DNA from: an uncultured Clostridia bacterium
GTDB taxonomy: Bacteria; Bacillota; Clostridia; Christensenellales; Borkfalkiaceae
DNA: 64,000 nt
NCBI GenBank assembly: GCA_947625605.1
Contig: CANQOY010000002.1
Coordinates: 60,399-124,398, forward strand
Direction of reading: 5' to 3'
Shown here: positions 54,509-64,000 of the stretch, in pieces
Layout: each line of letters starts with the position of its first letter
How positions within the stretch are numbered: the first letter of the stretch is position 1
The notes under the pieces: generated by a model
Told to the model about the DNA's origin: nothing
The model's input: the letters and a program-made list of their open reading frames with translations, nothing else
Databases searched by the model: none
Program-made: the position numbers and the translations under genes

Positions 54509-54538
54509 ATTATACCCCCCCCCCTACCGAGATGTCAA
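54509..54538 (-). promoter_or_regulatory. Promoter TTGACA-18 bp-TATAAT with a G10 tract in the spacer
   Basis: - strand TTGACAtctcggtaGGGGGGGGGGTATAAT. Confidence 0.9.
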
Positions 54539-62183: not shown

Positions 62184-63935
62184 TCAGGTCAATTCATAAT
62201 CATAGACGACCTTCTGAGAATTAGGAGCGTATACCAAACTCTCAAATTCACTCCAATTCTCCTTAGAACCCGTATAGCAAAGCTGCAAAGGCACGTCTCT
62301 GCTACCGCACCCACGGAATATTGTACTCGGAGACCATGATGTGTTGCTTTTGCTGTTCCCAAAAGTCGCCGATTCGATTTTCGTCTGGAACACGGCCTTG
62401 CTCAAATTCTTATTGTTTTGGAAAACATAAATCTGTATCTCCGATAAGCTCTTCGGGAAGACAATTTCACGGATGTCGGCTCCGCTGAACGCGCATTCTT
62501 TGATCGTTGTTATGCCCTCGGGCAGAACAATTTCTTGAAGGCTTGAACAATCCAAAAATGCGTTGATCTCAATGCTCTCCAACCCTGCCTCGGGCAAGGT
62601 CACTTCCGAGAGGCTGCTGCACTCGGCAAAGGCGATTTCCGGAATTTCCTTAATCGTCGCATCGGACATATCGACCGAAACAAGCGACTTCGCTTCATAA
62701 AAGATCGACCCTCCCAACGTGGTCTCTCCCTTGATCGTGACGTCTTCCAACCCTTTGACGGAACGAAAGGCATATGCGCCGTAAGTTGCGTTGCCTTCCA
62801 AGACGAGATGTTCGATGGTTGCGCCCGCAAACGCGCCGGGGCCGACATTGACGCCCTCCTGAATGACAAGCGTGCCGATATGCAGGTTTACGTTCGGGTT
62901 CGTCTTTGCGCTGTCGATGCCACGCAACCATTGGCGAACGGCATAACCATTTTCCTCAACCACTTCCTCCGAGACCGCTTCCTTGACCGTAACTTCTGCG
63001 CCATTGAGCGTCGACGCGATCGTGAGATCGCCGCCTTCCTCGACCAAATCGGGGGAGATGGTCACTTCGTTTTTGCCCTCTTCATTGGTTTCATAATGGC
63101 CTTCCAGCTGATTCTTGCCGCACACCGTGCAGACGCCGTCGGCAAATTGATGGCCGAGCGCTTCCACGCTCTCTACGACATTCATTCCGCAAACGGTGCA
63201 AGTTTTCATGACCAAGCCACGAGTGGTACAGCCCGCCTCGACGATCGTCGTCGGTTCCGCTTCGCCGAACGTGTGCTCGTTCAAGCAACTTGCAAATGTG
63301 AACGATTCTTCCGTACCGTCGGTAAAAGTTACGGTCAGCCGGTTGCCTTTCGTCTCAAAGTTTTGGAAGCCTTTCCCGGCAATGGAGCCGAGCGGGGTCC
63401 ATTCATCGTCTGCGCCGAGCTGCCAGACGGCGAAAGTGGATGTATTCAGATAGAAGTCGCCTTTCAGCGCGTCTTTGAGGGCGGGATCTCCCTCCGGATA
63501 CTCGTTGGGATCGATGTCGCCCGAGAACCAGATAACGCCGTCGCGCCCCGGCTGCCCTTTCAATGTAAGAATGGACGAACCCCAATCGCTCGCGGCTTTC
63601 TTTTGATAGAGTTCGCCGCTCTCGGTATTGAGATAGAAGTCGTTCTGCTGGCCGATCGAGGGAAGCGGGGCTTCCGTGCCGTAATACCAATTCACGTCTA
63701 CTTCCTGCCATTCATCGCCCGATTTGACGAAGCTTGCAAGGCTCGACGTGTTGAGATAATAGTCCCCCTCTTTGCCGAAGTCTTCCTTGGGTGCGGAAGC
63801 GCCATAGTACCAAGTGCTATTCTCCGCCGTCGTTTCGCCCGAATTGCACGCGCAGAACACGCCGAGCGCAAGCGACAGAATGCACGCGCAGAGGATCGTA
63901 AGAAGCATTCCGATCCGTTTTCTTGTTTTGTTCAT
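62184..63935 (-). CDS. BspA-like leucine-rich repeat surface lipoprotein
   Basis: Lipobox SLALGVFCAC; WYYGxxAPxxxxGxxxDFYLNT repeats; LRR_5-like EVTLPEAGLESIEINAFLDCSSLQEIVLPEGITTIKECAFSGADIREIVFP. Confidence 0.88.
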   Translation of the reverse strand: MNKTRKRIGMLLTILCACILSLALGVFCACNSGETTAENSTWYYGASAPKEDFGKEGDYYLNTSSLASFVKSGDEWQEVDVNWYYGTEAPLPSIGQQNDFYLNTESGELYQKKAASDWGSSILTLKGQPGRDGVIWFSGDIDPNEYPEGDPALKDALKGDFYLNTSTFAVWQLGADDEWTPLGSIAGKGFQNFETKGNRLTVTFTDGTEESFTFASCLNEHTFGEAEPTTIVEAGCTTRGLVMKTCTVCGMNVVESVEALGHQFADGVCTVCGKNQLEGHYETNEEGKNEVTISPDLVEEGGDLTIASTLNGAEVTVKEAVSEEVVEENGYAVRQWLRGIDSAKTNPNVNLHIGTLVIQEGVNVGPGAFAGATIEHLVLEGNATYGAYAFRSVKGLEDVTIKGETTLGGSIFYEAKSLVSVDMSDATIKEIPEIAFAECSSLSEVTLPEAGLESIEINAFLDCSSLQEIVLPEGITTIKECAFSGADIREIVFPKSLSEIQIYVFQNNKNLSKAVFQTKIESATFGNSKSNTSWSPSTIFRGCGSRDVPLQLCYTGSKENWSEFESLVYAPNSQKVVYDYELT

Positions 63936-63985: not shown

Positions 63986-64000
63986 ATTTTACCCCCCCCC
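63986..64000 (-). promoter_or_regulatory. G>=9 tract abutting -10-like TAAAAT upstream of LRR lipoprotein, cut by window end
   Basis: - strand GGGGGGGGGTAAAATGAGAG. Confidence 0.65.

Follow-up and report, generated by a model that had tools for sequence, protein, structure and literature searches.

A lineage-wide class of G-tract promoters as candidate slippage switches of lipoprotein genes in uncultured gut Clostridia

Homopolymer switches in known systems and at the focal locus

Among gut commensals, the best-known examples of phase variation involve invertible promoters. In Neisseria, the promoters of porA, fetA and opc carry a homopolymer between -10 and -35, and the spacing sets promoter strength (PMC5320596, PMC2791445); both papers confirm opc and porA as precedents, as which the initial annotation of our locus had named them. 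In Mycoplasma hyorhinis, each lipoprotein gene of the multigene vlp family has its own poly-A promoter (PMC10502178). Within the gut, G10 and G11 tracts of Bifidobacterium breve slip in vivo, with additions and omissions of about 10-12% at one locus in mice; these tracts lie inside genes and act through the reading frame, and G tracts in promoter spacers are mentioned only in passing (PMC9187656).

The locus described here resembles porA, fetA and opc in that a spacer homopolymer precedes a putative surface-protein gene. In contrast to these three named loci, it is a member of a promoter class found in gut Clostridia, whose genomes contain up to about 20 such promoters each. Their hexamers are near-perfect, the position of the tract within the spacer varies freely, and the spacings seen in assemblies avoid 17 bp. 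The vlp arrangement seems to have a counterpart in two related genomes (G060 and G061), where lipoprotein genes each appear to possess their own homopolymer promoter. However, the tracts are poly-G instead of poly-A, and the focal genome has only three different lipoproteins behind promoter tracts and no large family. With the pilus switch of B. breve our system shares G10 and G11 tracts in a Gram-positive gut commensal, and a G11 tract on contig C18 of the focal genome is of the same coding type.

The window analysed is a 64-kb stretch (64,000 nucleotides) from an uncultured Clostridia bacterium, in which the minus strand from 54538 to 54509 reads TTGACA TCTCGGTA GGGGGGGGGG TATAAT (Table 1). 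Re-reading of the letters reproduced the annotated promoter exactly, including both perfect hexamers and the spacer of 18 bp. With a homopolymer of at least 8 between -35 and -10, this spacer is one step off the background optimum of 17 bp, and a search of the window for TTGACN-TANAAT pairs 15-20 bp apart yielded five more, each with a 17-bp spacer. The ATG of the lipoprotein gene is located 54 bp 3' of the -10 hexamer and is preceded by a good ribosome site (AAGGAGAAGGAG). The window has six G/C runs of length 6 and none of 7 or 8, followed by single runs of 9 and 10, which agrees with the earlier count of only two runs of at least 8; under a dinucleotide model, 0.19 runs of at least 10 are expected per window.

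Table 1. Positions of G tracts, promoter elements and associated genes in the window and elsewhere in the focal genome
Feature	Position	Strand	Remarks
-35 hexamer TTGACA	54533..54538	-	Perfect consensus
Spacer, 18 bp (TCTCGGTA + G10)	54532-54515	-	
G10 tract	54515..54524	-	3' portion of the 18-bp spacer, adjoins -10
-10 hexamer TATAAT	54509..54514	-	Perfect consensus
Lipoprotein gene, 360 aa	53372..54454	-	Lipobox region IGFTAC
Second G tract, G9 or more	63992..64000	-	Directly 5' of -10-like TAAAAT (63986-63991)
583-aa lipoprotein, BspA-type leucine-rich repeats (PF13306)	62184..63935	-	3' of second tract
Promoter TTGACAGT-G10-CGAG-TAGAAT	C5:2787-2814		Spacer 16; before 838-aa lipoprotein
G11 tract in coding sequence	G000:C18:17983-17993		Junction of two open frames of one probable surface protein

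The 360-aa product matches no family in Pfam, and its AlphaFold model (pLDDT 83) yielded only weak similarity to LprG/LolB lipoproteins in a fold search against the PDB. Counting the focal genome, 28 of the 103 genus genomes encode a homologue. Upstream of orthologues, TTGACN-spacer-G9-TAYAAT arrangements were found with spacers of 17, 18, 18 and 19 bp and differing flanking letters, one of the spacer-18 promoters preceding a protein 67% identical to the focal one. A further copy (63% identical) lies on a contig that starts within the G tract and continues with TATAAT, and upstream of most of the more distant homologues in the genus genomes the tract is absent.

The second tract of the window is cut because the contig ends at 64000, and nine is therefore a minimum length. 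Relatives with a similar lipoprotein gene carry TTGACAATCAAAAACC-G8/9-TAAAAT at the place corresponding to the TAAAAT ahead of the ATG at 63935; therefore, the annotation was correct in placing both long tracts at lipoprotein promoters. Pattern searches of the 1.43-Mb focal genome detected five G/C tracts of at least 9. Three of them lie at lipoprotein promoters, a fourth marks a surface-protein frameshift and the fifth is located elsewhere. Compared with about 15 expected by chance (dinucleotide model scaled from the window), long G tracts are therefore not over-represented; the few that exist cluster at surface-protein genes, five being a small number. In the C5 promoter, the -35 hexamer and left flank are TTGACA-GT. 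At the G11 tract on C18, one frame stops just 3' of the tract and the other, with a carbohydrate-binding module, continues, which makes it a likely site of translational phase variation. A G9 tract on C20 was rejected as a promoter switch, as it does not lie between hexamers; another promoter-like site follows about 60-100 bp downstream.

Distribution of G-tract promoters and their target genes

The named relatives are metagenome-assembled genomes of uncultured Clostridia, nearly all tagged 'Lapin' (French for rabbit). We searched for TTGACN(0-14)G8N(0-10)TANAAT with the reversed pattern as a control. In the genus, 82 of 103 genomes contain matches, with up to 20 sites per genome and none for the reversed control. 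In the family sample, 103 of 301 genomes had matches, and these covered 10 of 18 genera (one reversed match). The count was 48 of 248 genomes in the order, mainly in four families (no reversed match), and 19 of 399 genomes in the phylum (reversed match in four genomes). These counts indicate that the promoter class characterises certain lineages within this order.

These numbers also bear on a trivial origin. Poly-G artefacts exist in two-colour sequencing, and two tracts are located at contig ends, as would suit an artefact of sequencing or assembly. However, truncated tracts occupy the 5' end of the G strand, the reverse of what read-end poly-G would give, the tract is conserved in orthologues, and all five other promoters of the window keep 17 bp. 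Besides, 82 genomes with forward matches stand against none with reversed ones among the 103. A chance G run between two hexamers is excluded by the reversed-pattern controls in genus, family and order together with the run-length expectation, and chance and artefact taken together can practically be dismissed. As a separate observation, several contigs end in or near G-tract promoters, for instance at window position 64000 and at G058:C146:1, G060:C29:3 and G082:C103:11, which could be due to length mixtures or to repeated sequence.

Using a simple gene picker, we found lipoproteins behind 32 of 58 G-tract promoters, and seven more genes encode a signal or membrane segment. Ordinary 17-bp promoters of same-genus genomes precede a lipoprotein in one of 30 cases (P = 4e-7 for the comparison; P values here overstate independence, because the sequences are related). 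Further targets include exporter ATPases and membrane proteins. Judged by the lipobox, the focal product is probably surface-exposed, and the same would hold for the 32 of 58 targets in relatives.

Spacer lengths and the avoidance of 17 bp

From the family genomes we parsed 274 different G-tract promoters. Their spacers measure 15-20 bp in 257 of the 274, against 38% expected from the pattern, and the counts form two peaks (15 bp, 51; 16 bp, 48; 17 bp, 26; 18 bp, 52; 19 bp, 60; 20 bp, 20). The lengths of the left and right flanks of the tract anticorrelate (Spearman -0.85, 274 promoters), and this trade-off means that total spacing is conserved rather than tract position. With right flanks of 0 to 10 bp, the tract adjoins the -35 hexamer, the -10 hexamer or lies anywhere between, and its modal length is nine (156 of 274).

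Ordinary TTGACA-TATAAT promoters are spaced at 17 bp in 101 of 140 cases (72%, among the matches listed from three genus genomes), which supports the annotated view that loss of one G at the focal promoter would restore the optimum. With the same hexamers, only 15 of 177 G-tract promoters (8%) have this spacing (Fisher 1e-33, a significance inflated by kinship). The dip recurs in other families of the order (16 bp, 33; 17 bp, 13; 18 bp, 18; 19 bp, 17). When tract lengths were permuted among flanks, 43.8 promoters at 17 bp were predicted and 26 observed, with none of 5000 shuffles as low; therefore, tract length itself is biased off 17 bp, beyond the effect of the flanks. After clustering of similar flanks (95 clusters), the peak at 15/16 falls to 12, 17 bp is represented by 8, and the peak at 18/19 remains.

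Avoidance of 17 bp also suits a switch with the opposite on-state, in which A-like G-tract DNA would shift the optimum, 18/19 bp (or 15/16 bp) would be on, the assembled state would be expressed and slippage would turn the gene off. G-tract DNA has altered rise and twist, which could favour other spacers. However, one shifted optimum leaves unexplained that 15/16 and 18/19 are both populated, and we regard this reading as unlikely; being a variant of the switch model, its probability overlaps with that of our preferred explanation.

Tract-length variation and the proposed switch

Seven promoter sets in the relatives have letter-identical flanks and differ only in the number of Gs, four of them within one genome. 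Such differences are the expected trace of slippage, but one-base assembly errors could yield some of them. Assembled tract lengths represent the majority state only and are possibly off by one. In genome G061, there are six same-flank sites, of which three were examined. In G060, 18 of 20 G-tract promoter sites have exactly G8 and a 15-bp spacer; 16 of 17 examined sites precede lipoproteins, nearly all of one large and dispersed family with near-identical promoters, and the seventeenth is cut by a contig end. This uniformity exceeds what frequent slippage suggests; recent duplication could explain it.

The uniformity in G060 and the modal length of nine in 156 of 274 promoters would equally suit a fixed regulatory element, that is a binding site or a DNA-geometry feature of near-constant length in a weak, regulated promoter. 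Promoters that depend on an activator or a repressor typically have spacers off 17 bp. On the other hand, the tract ranges from the -35 side to the -10 side, promoters with the same flanks vary in G number alone, and a promoter element makes no sense at the reading-frame junction on C18, where a long G tract is likewise found. In consequence, we judge a fixed element to be quite improbable.

The same arrangement at hundreds of promoters in related uncultured gut Clostridia makes a slippage-driven on/off switch very probable, through which these bacteria would alter the set of proteins on their surface. We are thus rather confident that the focal G10 acts as a contingency element, that is that the promoter of a putative surface lipoprotein undergoes transcriptional phase variation by slipped-strand mispairing. 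The phase-variable promoter proposed initially is supported by orthologues that keep the architecture and by a genus-wide class with zero reversed controls, and further by same-flank length differences, the lipoprotein targets, the G11 tract on C18 and the avoidance of 17 bp. Replication slippage would add or remove Gs in the tract, and the altered -35/-10 spacing would make a promoter of the sigma-A type, perfect in other respects, stronger or weaker. At the focal site, G10 would give a sub-optimal spacer of 18 bp and G9 one of 17 bp, which is the likely on-state because the other promoters of the organism use it. Assembled G-tract promoters, usually at 15/16 or 18/19 bp, would be one or two slippage steps away from 17 bp, and most assembled copies would be off or low. 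These patterns in assembled sequence suggest that slippage takes place in living populations and that both spacing classes correspond to an off or low state. The selective reason may be heterogeneity towards immunity, phages or adhesion.

The family cut-off for mutS is passed in 99 of the 103 genus genomes. As almost all genus genomes retain an intact gene, slippage would need to be frequent despite mismatch repair, and loss of mismatch repair is excluded as a general cause, even though mutS is split in the focal genome. There, the gene (G000:C7:32879-35405) is disrupted by a frameshift away from long homopolymers; either the organism is a natural mutator or the assembly is wrong at this point.

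Our confidence is evenly balanced for a wider proposal, namely that lineages of this order of gut Clostridia maintain, across the genome, a reserve of lipoprotein promoters that are off by default. Flanks and tract lengths would be co-tuned so that the common G9 misses 17 bp in both directions, and individual surface proteins would be switched on by rare slippage of a single step. A literature search, mostly without subscription papers, returned no study linking Christensenellales or Borkfalkia to phase variation and none on slippage promoters in gut Clostridia. The mechanism would be of a known kind; clade, scale and the avoidance of 17 bp are new as far as this search reached.

If the switch model is true, a slippage promoter switch aimed at lipoproteins is present in the majority of species of one genus of gut Clostridia. 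The choice of surface antigens in these uncultured bacteria would then be partly stochastic, and metagenome consensus genomes would mostly capture one state. Since each switch would consist of one homopolymer only, metagenomic reads that are already available would show its on/off ratio directly.
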